Assembly (NCBI RefSeq): GCF_000238775.2
Contig: NZ_AFEJ02000002.1
Coordinates: forward strand, 930,001 to 994,000
Direction: 5' to 3'
DNA: 64,000 nucleotides
Source: Acaryochloris sp. CCMEE 5410
GTDB taxonomy: Bacteria > Cyanobacteriota > Cyanobacteriia > Thermosynechococcales > Thermosynechococcaceae
Shown: positions 1 to 6,677 of the stretch, one piece after another
Layout: every line of letters begins with the position of its first letter
Position numbering within the stretch: the first letter of the stretch is position 1
The notes under the pieces: generated by a model
Told to the model about the DNA's origin: nothing
Database searches by the model: none
Seen by the model: the letters and a program-made list of their open reading frames with translations, nothing else
Position numbers and translations under genes: made by a program

Positions 1-1065
1 GTGATGTCCTGGCCTCAGATAATCGCCGTTTCCCCGGATGGTCAGCGAGCTTATGTTGCCGAAGTGCGATCGCGTCCTGCTGACGGCATTCAATCCTTCG
101 ATGATATTGACCAAATGCCTCCTGGGGAGAAGATTACCGTGGTTGACATAGCCGATCGTAGCCAACCGAAAGTACTTGAAACCGTCAAAGTCGGTCGCAA
201 TCCTGAACACTTGAGTCTCAGTCCAAACGGGCGCTTTTTGGCTGTCAATTTAAATGAACCTGGCAAAGAATTGCTGATTGCCCAAATCAAGGCAGATGGA
301 ACATTAGGTCATCGCACCTACTTCCCGGTGGAGACAGAAGGAACTCGTGAGGATAATCAGACCGCAATTTGGCATCCTTCCGGGCAATATTTAGCGATGA
401 TTCAGGCAAAGAATCGACGGCTAGGGTTTTATCGAGTGCAAACCGCTAATGAAGAGATTAACCTCACTCCAGTGACTGACTCGCTTCCCCTCGGCAACCA
501 TTTAAGTCACCCTCGTTTTACTGCCGATGGTCGTTTTGTTCTAGTCACAGATTTGAAATGGAGTCTACACACCATTCCAATTTTCAACCATTTGCTGAAC
601 CCCAAAGGCGAATTAATTGCCGTTCAGTTTGAGCCTAACTTAGGAAAAGCGCCCCAGGTCGTTTCTAGGGTTGAAGTGGGTCTGAGTCCAGAGGGGTTTG
701 CCCTCAATCCCGACAACTCTCTCATTGCCACGGTGAATATGCGGCGCACCTATTTACCCAATTTCCTACCCGCATGGCGAGGGAAACCCTACAGTTCCTT
801 ATCATTGGTCCCGTTTGATCCAAGCACTGGCCAGCTCACCCAGGGTAAGGAGTATGGATTCGAAGGCCTCTTAGCCGAACAAGTCACATTCGACACCAGC
901 GGCAATGCCTTAGCCGTAGTGATATACAACTACCGAGAACCCAGTCCTCAAACAGGGGCCATTGAATTTTGGGCTGTAAAAGCGGGCAAATCTCCAAAAT
1001 TAGAGCGCACGGGTTACAAACTGGAGGTTGTCCGCGGTGCCCACGATATCTTCTTAGTCCCCTGA
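1..1065 (+). CDS. Beta-propeller (lactonase/YncE-like) protein, 5' end probably outside window
   Basis: The reading frame is open from base 1 and ends at TGA 1063-1065. It begins at a GTG on the window edge, so the true start may lie upstream. The product has repeated propeller-blade signatures of the type AVSPDGQRAYVAE, LSLSPNGRFLAV, WHPSGQYLAMI and FALNPDNSLIATVN, spaced 40-60 residues apart. This is typical of seven-bladed lactonase or YncE-like proteins. No catalytic residues can be assigned, and no signal peptide is visible because the N-terminus is missing. The function is unknown; secreted or periplasmic ligand binding is common in such proteins but is inference here. Confidence 0.7.
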   Translation: MMSWPQIIAVSPDGQRAYVAEVRSRPADGIQSFDDIDQMPPGEKITVVDIADRSQPKVLETVKVGRNPEHLSLSPNGRFLAVNLNEPGKELLIAQIKADGTLGHRTYFPVETEGTREDNQTAIWHPSGQYLAMIQAKNRRLGFYRVQTANEEINLTPVTDSLPLGNHLSHPRFTADGRFVLVTDLKWSLHTIPIFNHLLNPKGELIAVQFEPNLGKAPQVVSRVEVGLSPEGFALNPDNSLIATVNMRRTYLPNFLPAWRGKPYSSLSLVPFDPSTGQLTQGKEYGFEGLLAEQVTFDTSGNALAVVIYNYREPSPQTGAIEFWAVKAGKSPKLERTGYKLEVVRGAHDIFLVP

Positions 1066-1466: not shown

Positions 1467-4400
1467 CTAAAGCGGTGAGCAGAGGTGGCGATGTTGATGT
1501 CCCTGAGCATTATTTTTTAGAAAATTTGAGATCCAACGACAAGCATATTCCTCTTCCTTTATCTGTAGAAGTTTCGCCAAATTCCAGCGCATTAGGGTTT
1601 GGTCATCGCTCGCTGAAACTAAGGATTTCCCATCTGGACTAAACGCAACGCTACGGACTGCACGATCATGCCCGGTTAGCGTTCGCACCAAAGTGGCCGG
1701 TTTCGTTCTTGAAAGATCAACCTGCCAGAGTTTGACCGTGTTATCCATCGCCGCAGACGCTAACCATTTGCCATCTGGGCTAATGGCGACCTCCCGGACC
1801 GCAGATTGATGATCAGGCAGGGTTTGAATTAATTGACCTGAAGCGGTCCATAGCTTAATATCGCTATCTTCTGAGGCCGATACAAACCACTGGCTGTTAG
1901 GACTTATGGCCACACTTTGGACAGCCGCACGATGCTCAGACAGCGTTGTTTTTAAGGTGCCATCCTTTGCCCACAGTTTTAGAGTCTTGTCGAGAGAAGC
2001 GGAAACGAACCATTGACCGTCGGGGCTAAAACTAACATCACGAACGGTGGCTTGATGCCCGTCTAAAATTTGAAAGGGAGTCTGTTCCAATTGCCCTTGA
2101 TCATCAAATTGCCAGCGTTGAATCGTATTGTCAGCGGACCCTATTGCTAACTGGTGACCATCGGGACTGTACTCTACTGACCATAGGCGGCTTGGCGTTG
2201 ATCTTCGGGTGCGAAGTGAGCCATCTGCATTCCAGATATGAATATAGCCACCGCGATCTGTTGTCACAAATTCTGGTTTGTTAGGGTGATAGGCCAACCC
2301 ATGTAAGGGGCCACCTAATTCAGGCGATGTGACTTGAGGCACGGCTTCAAAGGTTGTTGATGTCTGACGATGCCAGCGATAAATTTTGTGGCTAGGGGCA
2401 ATCGCTGCCAGTTGCTGTCCATCCGAGTGATAGGCCACTTGGCTGAGAAAATCTGTGGGGCCAACTAACCGTTGCCAAAAGGGATTGTTAAGCTGCCAAT
2501 AGCGCACTGTTCCGTCTTCTGAAGAAGATAATAAAAACTGACCATCTGGGCTAAATGTGACGGACCAAACGGTCGCTTGATGTCCCTTGAAGGTTCTCAA
2601 TAACTGGCCATTTCGGTGCCAAAGTTTCACTGTTTTGTCGGACGACACTGAGGCGATTAGTTCACCATTGGGGCTAAACGCCATGTCTCGGATTAAGGCA
2701 CCATGACCTGGTAGCTCACTGACTACCTTGCCTTTTTTGGTCCTAATCCGAATTTTTTGATCCAGCCCTGTTGCTGCAATATAGTCCCCGTTTGGGCTTA
2801 ATCGTATGATTCGCAATAATTCGGGAGCTGGTGGCAGCTCCCGAATCAGGGTGCTATCGGCATCACGAATTTGAATAACATGCCCTTTGTAGTTATTAGC
2901 AAGATAGCGACCATCCGCACTTTGGGTAAAAAACTTCGTCTTGGTAATGGAGTTGATCAGTTCGCCTTTGAGTGTCCAAGACTGTACTTTGTGGCTATTC
3001 GTAGAGGTCACAATCCGATCCCCCTTAGCATTGAAGACTAAGGCACGGACCTCAGCATCAAACGATGAGAGGGTATGGATGACCTTGCCTTGCAAATTCC
3101 ACAATTTGACGGTTCTATCGGCTGAAGCTGAAGCAAGGGTTTGCCCATCTGGGCTAAAGACGACTTGGTTGACCTCGGCTTGGTGATTAAATTTTTGCCA
3201 TCGTATTTGTCCATCCCACCCCCAAAGACTGACAGAGCCATCGGCGGCGGCAGTGGCAATTTGGGTGCCATCTGGGCTAATCGCAACATGCTCCACTTTA
3301 ACGCCTAAAGTTAGACGATTTCGCTCCACCATCCGGTGGACGTTACTAAGGAGTGTGGCTTGGATCTCGTTCGCTAGACCATCAGCCCCCTTTTGCAGGT
3401 GATCGAGTTGTTGATGGGCTTGAATAATGTCGGCGAGGGCTTCAAGCTGTCGATGGGAATCCATATTTCCCTGGGAAGAGGAGAGGAAAGCCCTAATGTT
3501 ACTTTCTAGGGTCTTTTGCTCACTGGCCTGGGCCAATTCAGTCTGTTTTTGGGCCGTTTGTGCTTGCTGATAGGCAGCTCCTCCTAAGCCCACAGCAATT
3601 AAGAAGGCAATAGAAACGGTAATGGAGAAGCGCTTTTGGAGTTTGGTGGTTTGCTGTTCCTGTTGAAGCTGGGTTTCAATAGCCCGTGCCCGTTCGGCTT
3701 CGAGGGTCATTTGAATCTGTTTGCGATCGCATTCCACAGACGCCGTTAAAAACTGATGATCCTCATCGCTGAGCCGTTTCCCTTGGGACCAGTCCAGCGC
3801 CTCTTGCAGGGTTTGGCCCCGCAATAACCGGGATTCATCTTGCTGCTCTGAGGCCAACCAAAATTCCAAAGACGTTTTGTAGGGACGGAGTCGGCCGAGC
3901 TGCTTCTCCACCCAAGCTTGATTGAAAACCTGGCGATAGATGGGGTTCTTAACCCGAAGTTGTCCATCCTGCTTAACGACTAACCCCGATAGAATCAGGT
4001 CGGTTTGATCTGGGCTCTCTTCTGCCGGAATAGCGGTAGCCTGCAACACCTGCTGATAAAGTCCTAAGCGCCGACCAGCAGAAGCTGAATGATTGAGCAA
4101 TCGATTCTGCACCGTTCTTAAATGTTCCGGTTCATCCTGGGATTCCCAATGCTGAAGGATATGGTCTTTCACAACTTGCTCGACCCAGTTCGCTTCCTTC
4201 CCCGGTGAAATGCTGACAGCTTCATCACTGGCTTGAGCCACGAGTTGACAGAGCTTTTGGGTCAGGAACGGCTGACCTTGGGTCCAGTACAAAATCGCAG
4301 CTAAGATTGCATCGGCATCCCCACCTTTCAAATCCAGCCCCTGAGCCAATATCTTACTTTCCGCCACCGTAAAACCTTGGAGAGGAATGGCGGTGCCTAA

Positions 4401-4991
4401 ATTAAAGGGCGTACGCTGACGGTTTTGGATCAGGTCCGACGGTGTGGCTACACCAAAAAGGGCAAAGTTGAGTCGACAGTAGTCTGGATCCACGGCCCGT
4501 TGGTTATAGCAAAAGCGAATCAGGGCAAAGAAATCATCAACAGAAAAGGGCAACCCCAAAATACTGTCGATTTCATCGATGAAAATCACCAGTTGCTGAT
4601 CGGGGAACTGCTCTAGCAGCCCAACCTTGATAAATTGACTCAATCGCTGTAGTAAAGAAATATCGGCTTCGTCTTGCCACCAAGATTTGAAGTCAAACTG
4701 ACGGATCAGTTTGAAGTTGCGCCACAGATCTTTGATCATCCCTTTGTACCACTGCAAAGGAGTGATATTCTCGCTACCGATATTGGTCATATCGACAACT
4801 GCACATCGATAGCCCTCTGCCTGCAAACGGTGACGCGTCTGCACGAGTAGAGACGACTTGCCCATTTGCCGGGAGTTCAGGACATAGCAGAACTCGCCCC
4901 GTTTTAGGGCAGCGTAGATCTGCTGATCGGCTTGCCGGGCAATATAGGTCGACGCACTGGCTGAAAGACTACCACCAATCTGATATTGCAT
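1467..4991 (-). CDS. AAA-like ATPase (AAA_35 type) with C-terminal WD40 propellers
   Basis: This 1174-residue protein starts with an AAA-like P-loop domain. The nucleotide loop is NSRQMGKSSLL (residues 39-49) and a Walker B is LVIFIDEID (134-142). A basic/glutamine-rich linker leads to one predicted membrane segment near 450-470. About a dozen WD40 repeats (VAFSPDG..LVSASDD..LWQ patterns) follow from about 540 to 1150, enough for two propellers. This architecture is common in filamentous and other complex cyanobacteria and resembles STAND-type signal hubs, with WD40 as the sensing or scaffolding part. Its start lies 15 bp after the stop of the AAA-GGDEF gene, so the two are probably co-transcribed. 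Ligand and partners are unknown. Confidence 0.9.
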   Translation of the reverse strand: MQYQIGGSLSASASTYIARQADQQIYAALKRGEFCYVLNSRQMGKSSLLVQTRHRLQAEGYRCAVVDMTNIGSENITPLQWYKGMIKDLWRNFKLIRQFDFKSWWQDEADISLLQRLSQFIKVGLLEQFPDQQLVIFIDEIDSILGLPFSVDDFFALIRFCYNQRAVDPDYCRLNFALFGVATPSDLIQNRQRTPFNLGTAIPLQGFTVAESKILAQGLDLKGGDADAILAAILYWTQGQPFLTQKLCQLVAQASDEAVSISPGKEANWVEQVVKDHILQHWESQDEPEHLRTVQNRLLNHSASAGRRLGLYQQVLQATAIPAEESPDQTDLILSGLVVKQDGQLRVKNPIYRQVFNQAWVEKQLGRLRPYKTSLEFWLASEQQDESRLLRGQTLQEALDWSQGKRLSDEDHQFLTASVECDRKQIQMTLEAERARAIETQLQQEQQTTKLQKRFSITVSIAFLIAVGLGGAAYQQAQTAQKQTELAQASEQKTLESNIRAFLSSSQGNMDSHRQLEALADIIQAHQQLDHLQKGADGLANEIQATLLSNVHRMVERNRLTLGVKVEHVAISPDGTQIATAAADGSVSLWGWDGQIRWQKFNHQAEVNQVVFSPDGQTLASASADRTVKLWNLQGKVIHTLSSFDAEVRALVFNAKGDRIVTSTNSHKVQSWTLKGELINSITKTKFFTQSADGRYLANNYKGHVIQIRDADSTLIRELPPAPELLRIIRLSPNGDYIAATGLDQKIRIRTKKGKVVSELPGHGALIRDMAFSPNGELIASVSSDKTVKLWHRNGQLLRTFKGHQATVWSVTFSPDGQFLLSSSEDGTVRYWQLNNPFWQRLVGPTDFLSQVAYHSDGQQLAAIAPSHKIYRWHRQTSTTFEAVPQVTSPELGGPLHGLAYHPNKPEFVTTDRGGYIHIWNADGSLRTRRSTPSRLWSVEYSPDGHQLAIGSADNTIQRWQFDDQGQLEQTPFQILDGHQATVRDVSFSPDGQWFVSASLDKTLKLWAKDGTLKTTLSEHRAAVQSVAISPNSQWFVSASEDSDIKLWTASGQLIQTLPDHQSAVREVAISPDGKWLASAAMDNTVKLWQVDLSRTKPATLVRTLTGHDRAVRSVAFSPDGKSLVSASDDQTLMRWNLAKLLQIKEEEYACRWISNFLKNNAQGHQHRHLCSPL

Positions 4992-5006
4992 AAGCTTAAG
5001 GCCAGG

Positions 5007-6677
5007 TTAGTCAGCCGCAATAGCAATCTGCACCCGATCTCGCCCTAATGCTTTGGCCTGGTAAAGTGCCTGATCCGCTGCTTTGATTAAACTCGTCGGA
5101 TCCTGATCGAGGGTGGGAATGATACTGGCGACCCCCATACTGGCCGTGACAATTTTGGTGGCGACGGTAGAACGATCGTGACTTATCTTTTTCTCCTTGA
5201 TGCAGTTCAGCATGGTCTCAGCTATTTGGGCCGCACTTTCTGCAGTGGTGAGGGGCAGCACCACCACAAATTCTTCGCCGCCATATCGTGCCACCAAGTC
5301 CGAGGCTCGTTGAGCGCACCTTTGCATAGCCTGAGCAACCTGCTGAAGGCATTGGTCTCCAGCCTGATGACCGTAGGTATCGTTGTAGAGCTTAAAGCAG
5401 TCTACATCTGCCAAGATCACGGCCAAAGGAGCTTGCATCTCGCCTAACTGTTGCCACTTTGCCTGAATAAACTCATCAAAGGACCGACGATTGGCAACTT
5501 GGGTAAGGGCATCTAAATTAACAAGCTGTTTTAATTGCGTATTCTCTTCTTCCAGTTGGGCTAACCGTTCTCGCCAAGCATCCAGTTGACTGAAGGTTTT
5601 GTGAACAAAAAATTGCCTATAGAGTTCACAGGAGATCAGGCACTCATTTCTCCTTAGCTCCACTAACCCTAAGCTATTGAGCTTATATGCAATGACGGGT
5701 TCTAATTCAAACCCGCTCTTTGCTGATACCACATCCTTGAGGGCCGCCGCTAGCTCAGGCTGGTGATTGAGGGTGGTTAAGAGCTTCTGGAGGTGGTGGC
5801 GATAGATGCTTGCTTGGGTGGGAGCCTCCTGCAAAAACTGGTCTAGGGTCTTTTGGCCATAGCTAATGTCATACAGGGCCATATTGACTAAAGCAGGACG
5901 CCCACCCACTAAGTCCATTAACTGCTGGGCCTCACTGTCGGATTCCCAGTCCAAACCATAAGCATAGGCCAATGCTTTGACTTGGACCAAATTAAACGGC
6001 GGCAACCGAATCGGCAAGCCCACATTAAACGGCGAGTGATTAATATTCAGGGGAACATACACTTCTGTGGAGTGACTGACCATGAGTCGCAGATGGCGAA
6101 AAACATCACCTTGTTTGGCTTGCTCATGCCAAAAGCGCAACAAGGGTAAGAAATCGACGGCAATGGCGACATGTTCAAAGATCTCTTCAACATGCTGAAG
6201 GGCAATGACCAGGGGGGTATCTAGCTCAGCCAGCAAATAATCTTCAAAATACATGGTGCAGCTTAGCTTTGCCCCAATGTCGTCATCCCAATAGTCATCT
6301 AAACAAGAGGGCTTTCTCAGCTGATAAGTAACGCTAGCGCAGAACCACCGCAAAAACTTGCCAATATTGGTAAAAATATCTTGATCCGCAGTCTGAAAGT
6401 TGATCGTCACCGTCTGATAGCCCTGGGCACGAGCATGAGCAGTGAGCCGCAATAACAGAGAGCTTTTTCCCATGCCTTGGGGCGCTTGAATACGCACTAA
6501 ACCGCCCGGTTTTTCGATGCCCTGATAGGCATGATTCTCCAGGGGTAATCGCTCAATATAGAGGGATGAATCTAACGAAATCGCACCGCTAGGGAAGTGA
6601 AGATCGGCAGGATTAATTGAGGGTCTTGTTGGAACAGAAGAAGGAGGGTCGAGTGGTGACTCAGAAACCGTATTCAT
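5007..6677 (-). CDS. AAA-like ATPase fused to GGDEF diguanylate cyclase
   Basis: The 556-residue product has an N-terminal AAA-like domain with P-loop APQGMGKSS (65-73), related to the domain in the downstream WD40 protein. A short coiled coil (about 365-385) leads to a GGDEF domain (about 387-553). The active site is intact (GGEEF, 466-470). The allosteric inhibitory RxxD site (RASD, 457-460) sits five residues before it, so cyclic-di-GMP synthesis with product feedback is expected from family knowledge. No membrane segment or response-regulator receiver domain is seen; the ATPase domain presumably gates the cyclase. It is the first gene of a likely two-gene operon with the WD40 ATPase. Confidence 0.9.
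   Translation of the reverse strand: MNTVSESPLDPPSSVPTRPSINPADLHFPSGAISLDSSLYIERLPLENHAYQGIEKPGGLVRIQAPQGMGKSSLLLRLTAHARAQGYQTVTINFQTADQDIFTNIGKFLRWFCASVTYQLRKPSCLDDYWDDDIGAKLSCTMYFEDYLLAELDTPLVIALQHVEEIFEHVAIAVDFLPLLRFWHEQAKQGDVFRHLRLMVSHSTEVYVPLNINHSPFNVGLPIRLPPFNLVQVKALAYAYGLDWESDSEAQQLMDLVGGRPALVNMALYDISYGQKTLDQFLQEAPTQASIYRHHLQKLLTTLNHQPELAAALKDVVSAKSGFELEPVIAYKLNSLGLVELRRNECLISCELYRQFFVHKTFSQLDAWRERLAQLEEENTQLKQLVNLDALTQVANRRSFDEFIQAKWQQLGEMQAPLAVILADVDCFKLYNDTYGHQAGDQCLQQVAQAMQRCAQRASDLVARYGGEEFVVVLPLTTAESAAQIAETMLNCIKEKKISHDRSTVATKIVTASMGVASIIPTLDQDPTSLIKAADQALYQAKALGRDRVQIAIAAD

Follow-up and report, generated by a model that had tools for sequence, protein, structure and literature searches.

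STAND (signal transduction ATPases with numerous domains) NTPases, such as the NB-ARC and NACHT families and the archaeal 2qen type, share a P-loop core, a helical part with a G-x-P motif and a winged helix, around which output domains and WD40 sensors are arranged. Here, we examine two adjacent genes in a 64,000-nucleotide stretch of the cyanobacterium Acaryochloris sp. CCMEE 5410 (NCBI RefSeq assembly GCF_000238775.2, contig NZ_AFEJ02000002.1, positions 930,001 to 994,000; hereafter the window). Both encode ATPases with an AAA_35 domain, one of them (A) joined to a GGDEF diguanylate cyclase domain and the other (B) to a transmembrane segment and WD40 repeats. Compared with the known STAND NTPases, sensor and output are here divided between two ATPase proteins, one of which is catalytically degraded, and the sensor probably lies across the membrane. 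Our preferred reading, held with moderate confidence, is that the pair constitutes one transmembrane signalling machine, in which the receptor ATPase B controls a non-hydrolysing A that makes cyclic di-GMP (c-di-GMP).

Other described systems resemble parts of this arrangement. In paired plant nucleotide-binding leucine-rich repeat receptors (NLRs) of the sensor/helper kind, two related ATPases are likewise encoded side by side, and one senses while the other executes; the present pair, however, is bacterial, has its degenerate site in the executing partner instead of the sensor, and has a membrane-spanning sensor, and we claim no evolutionary tie between the two. The VMAP ternary conflict systems (PMC7159879) are also centred on an NTPase, with conserved gene order, congruent trees and exchangeable effectors, but they are built on MoxR and vWA proteins, the text of that paper contains no AAA_35 pair, and no MoxR or vWA gene was seen among the neighbouring open reading frames (ORFs) of the window when their translations were read. 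In Escherichia coli, RdcA/RdcB and DgcE (PMC6510439) provide a case of a nucleotide-hydrolysing partner activating a diguanylate cyclase by direct contact, although there a dynamin-like GTPase acts on a MASE1 membrane cyclase, and as the proteins are unrelated, the system is a functional analogue only. Ordinary periplasm-sensing diguanylate cyclases also pass an outside signal to GGDEF via a helix, whereas here the sensor and the cyclase belong to different proteins, which a pair of ATPase domains connects.

AAA_35 itself has been mentioned in passing as an accessory domain found rarely on sigma factors (PMC11119718), and the terms STAND, NACHT, AAA and ATPase are absent from the text of a recent census that covers the sensory domains of c-di-GMP signalling (PMC8846402). 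In the papers searched, all outside subscription journals and preprints, we found no description of such a pair under AAA_35 or STAND with GGDEF or WD40 in cyanobacteria. The family described here is apparently undescribed so far, and would represent STAND-type signalling in a new form.

Two subfamilies of AAA_35 ATPases encoded side by side

Both genes lie on the minus strand of the window, as do all features of the pair given below. The A gene, first of the pair (5007..6677; 556 aa), encodes an AAA_35 domain, a coiled helix and a GGDEF domain, and the B gene, second of the pair (1467..4991; 1174 aa), encodes an AAA_35 domain, a linker, a transmembrane segment and WD40 repeats. They are separated by 15 nt (4992..5006), exactly as a first-pass annotation made from the sequence alone had described. 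That annotation, whose interpretation our analysis supports in part, had also regarded the two genes as sharing the same AAA-like domain, a point that needs refinement. Both proteins match AAA_35 (Pfam PF14516) over its full length and above its curated cut-off of 27 bits, with A scoring 467 bits (aa 28-358; 5604..6596) and B only about 105-106 bits (aa 2-374; 3870..4988), although B scores 608 bits against a profile of its own kind. The two domains are 26% identical over 274 residues. A PF14516 search of the whole genome (8.09 Mb) gives 16 matches with the same division, 8 at 380-511 bits and 8 at 99-119 bits. The bimodal scores, the trees and an A-B identity of about 21-26% rule out one homogeneous family, and the domains belong to two distinct AAA_35 subfamilies, which we name A and B. 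Seven of the eight A genes in this genome are directly upstream of a B gene.

The nearest relative by sequence, Acaryochloris sp. IP29b_bin.137, has the orthologous pair, with A 91% and B 95% identical to the window proteins. The ratios of nonsynonymous to synonymous divergence (dN/dS) against these orthologues are low in the A ATPase (0.06), GGDEF (0.07), B ATPase (0.09) and WD40 (0.17) parts, so every part of the pair is maintained. Synonymous divergence (dS) from the same orthologues (locus L117) is 0.61 for A and 0.18 for B, a threefold gap between adjoining genes which suggests that the B gene has been recombined or exchanged.

Co-occurrence and matched lineages of A and B

We searched 388 cyanobacterial genomes with separate A and B profiles (E <= 1e-30). 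A was found in 253 genomes and B in 250, about two thirds of those searched having both; 245 of the 258 genomes having either carry the two together, leaving 8 with A only and 5 with B only (Fisher odds ratio of about 800, with relatedness ignored). Copy numbers are also correlated (r = 0.88 across 31 genomes, taking B as total matches minus A). In the genus g6, each of the 11 genomes, of 2.1-2.8 Mb, has one A and one B, which are separated by 40 kb to about 1 Mb where they could be placed; as the two are unlinked and yet both present, operon hitchhiking cannot explain their co-occurrence. A and B thus occur together almost obligately, even when unlinked, and genomes with a single copy of each would make their joint action, if the reading is right, testable in a simple host.

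The first-pass annotation had proposed a survey of AAA_35-GGDEF and AAA_35-WD40 gene pairs. Using the window A protein as the query in the 388 genomes, we recovered about 30 full-length AAA_35-GGDEF proteins, and these, with a later set from named genomes, gave 39 distinct GGDEF-type loci that were read, the first 30 having been picked for their similarity to the window protein, a choice that may have enriched for paired loci. At 23 of these 39 loci, a B gene is directly downstream, in the order seen in the window, where the GGDEF gene is first and the WD40 gene second. The pairing in the window is not a matter of chance, given these 23 loci and the orthologous pair in IP29b_bin.137, and it is far more general than was anticipated. 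Three natural single-chain proteins join B and A (L110, L112 and L113). Taken as a whole, comparative genomics supports the A/B pairing well.

The trees of the two subfamilies also match. In separate A and B trees, wherever A lacks the Walker B Asp, its B partner falls in one and the same B clade (21/21 pairs; Shimodaira-Hasegawa-like approximate likelihood ratio test, SH-aLRT, 91), and the partners of Asp-bearing A proteins all fall outside it (16/16). A further 20 pairs obey the same rule without exception, 18 of them being new and 2 repeating sequences already used. Genome G374 and the window's genome each contain both kinds of pair, side by side. Pairwise distances of A and B correlate over 43 pairs (r = 0.76) and over the 20 GGDEF pairs (r = 0.82). 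Matched lineages and near-obligate co-occurrence, the two properties by which paired receptor and output ATPases would be recognized, are therefore both found.

Loss of the Walker B acids in A

The window A protein has an intact P-loop, APQGMGKSS (aa 65-73; 6459..6485), but its Walker B acidic pair is lost, with Q161-H162 (6192..6197) in place of Asp-Glu. In contrast, the B partners retain P-loop and Walker B alike; in the window B protein the latter is D139-E140 (4572..4577), a pair that is invariant throughout the B alignments. Across the A subfamily, all 150 domains retain the P-loop Lys. Asp of Walker B is missing from all 38 GGDEF-linked A domains (Asn in 28, Ser in 4, Gln in 3, His in 2 and Thr in 1), and is present in 28 of the 29 A domains whose output is TIR, kinase or CHAT and in 42 of the 66 with helix-turn-helix (HTH). 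Because Q-H stands where a Walker B acidic residue is expected, it is improbable that A-GGDEF works as an ordinary switch driven by ATP hydrolysis, and A probably binds nucleotide without hydrolysing it; we accordingly class A as STAND-like and not as a canonical STAND ATPase, while B, with its Asp-Glu, does have the STAND Walker B motif. The STAND-type assignment made in the first-pass annotation thus holds for the anatomy of the domain, and less so for the active site of A, and its suggestion of an ATP switch on the GGDEF protein does not stand as written; of the two proteins, it is the WD40 partner that has the intact site.

On an A tree built without the motif columns, loss of the Asp requires three changes, and all GGDEF proteins lie in a 51-row Asp-less cluster (SH-aLRT 81). 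Walker B loss and GGDEF fusion are hence one old event followed by later drift. We had considered that GGDEF and Walker B loss might be independent, correlated events, but rejected this, as about one origin is enough to account for the tree; a sign test was short of independent pairs.

Several observations weigh against treating A and B as a unit. Read from the tree, the Walker B loss is a property of a lineage, and not repeated or independent proof of coupling. Within the window's genome, the correlation of A and B distances falls from r = 0.80 to 0.16 without L015, one deeply divergent pair, and within-genome coevolution was dropped as a sole proof, being not significant once this pair is removed. 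GG[DE]EF is kept in only 26 of the 39 fusions and changed in 13. Adjacency is also not universal, as 15 of the 39 GGDEF-type loci lack a neighbouring B, and so do many HTH-type A genes; when such GGDEF loci were checked by genome, B was present elsewhere, except in G341 and G380, which carry an HTH-A-GGDEF protein but no B anywhere. The absence of Walker B from A, the fusions without a neighbouring B and these two genomes would be explained if A-GGDEF acted by itself as a homodimeric cyclase, its degenerate ATPase serving as a scaffold, and if B were an independent WD40 receptor with only the operon in common. We consider this unlikely, as it fits poorly with the co-occurrence of unlinked A and B, their matched lineages and the existence of B-A fusions, and both genomes without B have a changed cyclase motif (GGEEL and RDEQF).

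A second alternative overlaps with our preferred reading and may be seen as a variant of it, in which GGDEF-linked A is locked in a nucleotide-bound, constitutively active state, and B is purely a brake or a localiser. Related switches become locked in their ATP state by changes such as loss of Walker B with a kept P-loop, as in NLR mutants, and here a loss of this kind has occurred naturally. We regard this variant as a real but less likely alternative.

Fold and topology of the two proteins

An AlphaFold2 model of A-GGDEF (mean predicted local distance difference test score, pLDDT, 87.4) shows a Rossmann core, a helical part and a winged helix, followed by a continuous helix (aa 351-386; 5520..5627; dN/dS 0.02) that runs from the winged helix into the GGDEF domain and is predicted to be a dimerising signalling helix. 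A sequence search for relatives of solved structure gave none that was credible. The whole AAA_35 part of A superposes on PDB 2qen, an archaeal Walker-type ATPase that we take to be placed near STAND, with a Z score of 21.1 and 4.3 Å over 310 residues at 10% identity. Together with the P-loop, the winged helix and the C-terminal helical part, and with GK and G-x-P motifs that are conserved in AAA_35 domains, this match gives the domain a STAND-like anatomy. The GGDEF domain (aa 387-548; 5034..5519; Pfam 173 bits) superposes on that of WspR (PDB 3i5b) with a Z score of 29.0 and a root-mean-square deviation of 1.6 Å over 169 residues. The GGEEF active-site motif (aa 466-470; 5268..5282) and the RxxD allosteric inhibitory site (RASD, aa 457-460; 5298..5309) are intact, as the first-pass annotation had read them, and with both motif and fold, the upstream gene product is identified as a predicted diguanylate cyclase.

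The B protein, for which NCBIfam returned no name, has one hydrophobic stretch (aa 455-473; 3573..3629), with KLQKR just before it, in accordance with the positive-inside rule; this is the membrane segment already recognized from the sequence. Pfam and a model of B (pLDDT 82) place about 14 WD40 blades in aa 556-1137 (1581..3326), which are predicted to form two propellers and contain no cysteine, such that the earlier count of about a dozen repeats was a fair one. A C-terminal helical hairpin (1479..1541) bears C1151 and C1171, the only cysteines after the transmembrane segment, as a candidate disulfide. These features recur across the subfamily. In most B proteins, the ATPase is followed by a single hydrophobic segment that has more Lys and Arg on its N-terminal side than on the other, and in 34 B-WD40 proteins, cysteine makes up 1.2% of the ATPase part and 0.17% of the WD40 part, with the terminal pair present in 30 of the 34. 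As a control within the same genome, WD40 regions not preceded by a transmembrane segment or signal peptide contain 2.7% cysteine, compared with 0.25% in those that are (L247-L262); the groups were divided by a simple hydropathy cut-off, and the signal-peptide-like L260 was counted in the group without, which works against the contrast. Given the conserved transmembrane segment, the positive-inside charge and the near-absence of cysteine save for the terminal pair, the WD40 part of B probably constitutes an extracytoplasmic sensor with a terminal disulfide. The WD40 receptor partner of the first-pass annotation would therefore probably be a transmembrane receptor with its WD40 repeats outside the cytoplasm and not a cytosolic one. 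Cysteine content may serve more generally as a cheap test of topology for cyanobacterial WD40 proteins.

A model for signalling by the pair

Under our preferred reading, B would be a single-pass receptor that binds a ligand through two WD40 propellers lying outside the cytoplasmic membrane, and the linker and transmembrane helix would relay its state to the catalytically complete STAND-like ATPase inside. B may then dock on soluble A through contact between the two ATPase domains. As A is expected to bind nucleotide, and probably fails to hydrolyse it for want of the Walker B acid, B would be the partner that sets the state of A. Assembly or release of A could align the helices that follow the winged helix and pair two GGDEF domains, which would start (or stop) synthesis of c-di-GMP; the product would in turn act back on the enzyme through the RxxD site. 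The same chassis may also serve other A/B pairs, in which the output is TIR, kinase, CHAT, class III cyclase or HTH.

Outputs of the A family and other observations

The output borne by the A gene is exchangeable. In the window's genome, A is attached to a kinase and TIR at L009, to CHAT and TIR at L015 and to GGDEF in the window, has a short HTH-like N-terminus at L010, L012, L013 and L014, and has no recognised attachment at L011. In other genomes, A carries a C-terminal class III cyclase (L188), a C-terminal kinase (L122) or CHAT-CHASE2 (L124). B mostly has a transmembrane segment and WD40 repeats, in place of which B at L010 has GAF, and many Nostoc B proteins end shortly past the transmembrane segment. 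It is conceivable, though the claim could as well prove wrong as right, that cyanobacteria at large possess a hitherto unnamed class of two-protein transmembrane STAND-like receptors, in which B, with a periplasmic WD40 or other sensor, a transmembrane segment and an active ATPase, controls an A with exchangeable output (c-di-GMP and class III cyclases, TIR, kinase, CHAT) that is catalytically dead in one lineage. If true, this widespread receptor class would join STAND-type ATPases to classical second messengers and, like paired plant immune receptors, divide sensor and output between partner ATPases, and c-di-GMP signalling would gain an input route absent from the published census (PMC8846402).

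Outputs of the TIR, CHAT and kinase kinds are typical of conflict systems, and GGDEF is listed as a rare effector in VMAP systems (PMC7159879), which raises the question of whether the pair is instead a STAND system against phage, in which the WD40 part would recognize an invader and the cell would be shut down through c-di-GMP or the other outputs. We find this quite unlikely: no PADLOC system model matches A-GGDEF, and the single match of B is to its WD40 repeats only; WD40 repeats that appear extracytoplasmic would be oddly sited for sensing phage proteins made inside the cell; and the neighbouring genes in the window are ordinary, judged by reading.

A number of further architectures were observed. 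L110:718-3432 encodes in one chain a B-ATPase, a class III nucleotide cyclase and an A-ATPase, amounting to a one-protein pair with another cyclic-nucleotide output. In a single 1214-aa protein at L124:7995-11639, a GGDEF remnant, CHAT and CHASE2 come after an A-ATPase. Proteins of about 1900 aa with an N-terminal protein kinase and a C-terminal B-type ATPase are found beside an HTH-type A gene at L179:9300-15041, and also at L133 and L186. At L089, an AAA_35-GGDEF gene is interrupted by stop codons in genome G276, where other A and B genes remain. HTH-type or bare A genes without B stand just upstream of varied enzyme genes at L137, L157, L185, L121, L162 and L191, the enzymes being carotenoid-oxygenase-like, amine-oxidase-like, haloperoxidase-like and YcaO-like when their sequences are read by eye, as if some A proteins acted as local regulators. 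In the window itself, a beta-propeller-like protein is encoded downstream of the pair on the opposite strand (1-1065, plus strand), and its gene runs past the window edge.

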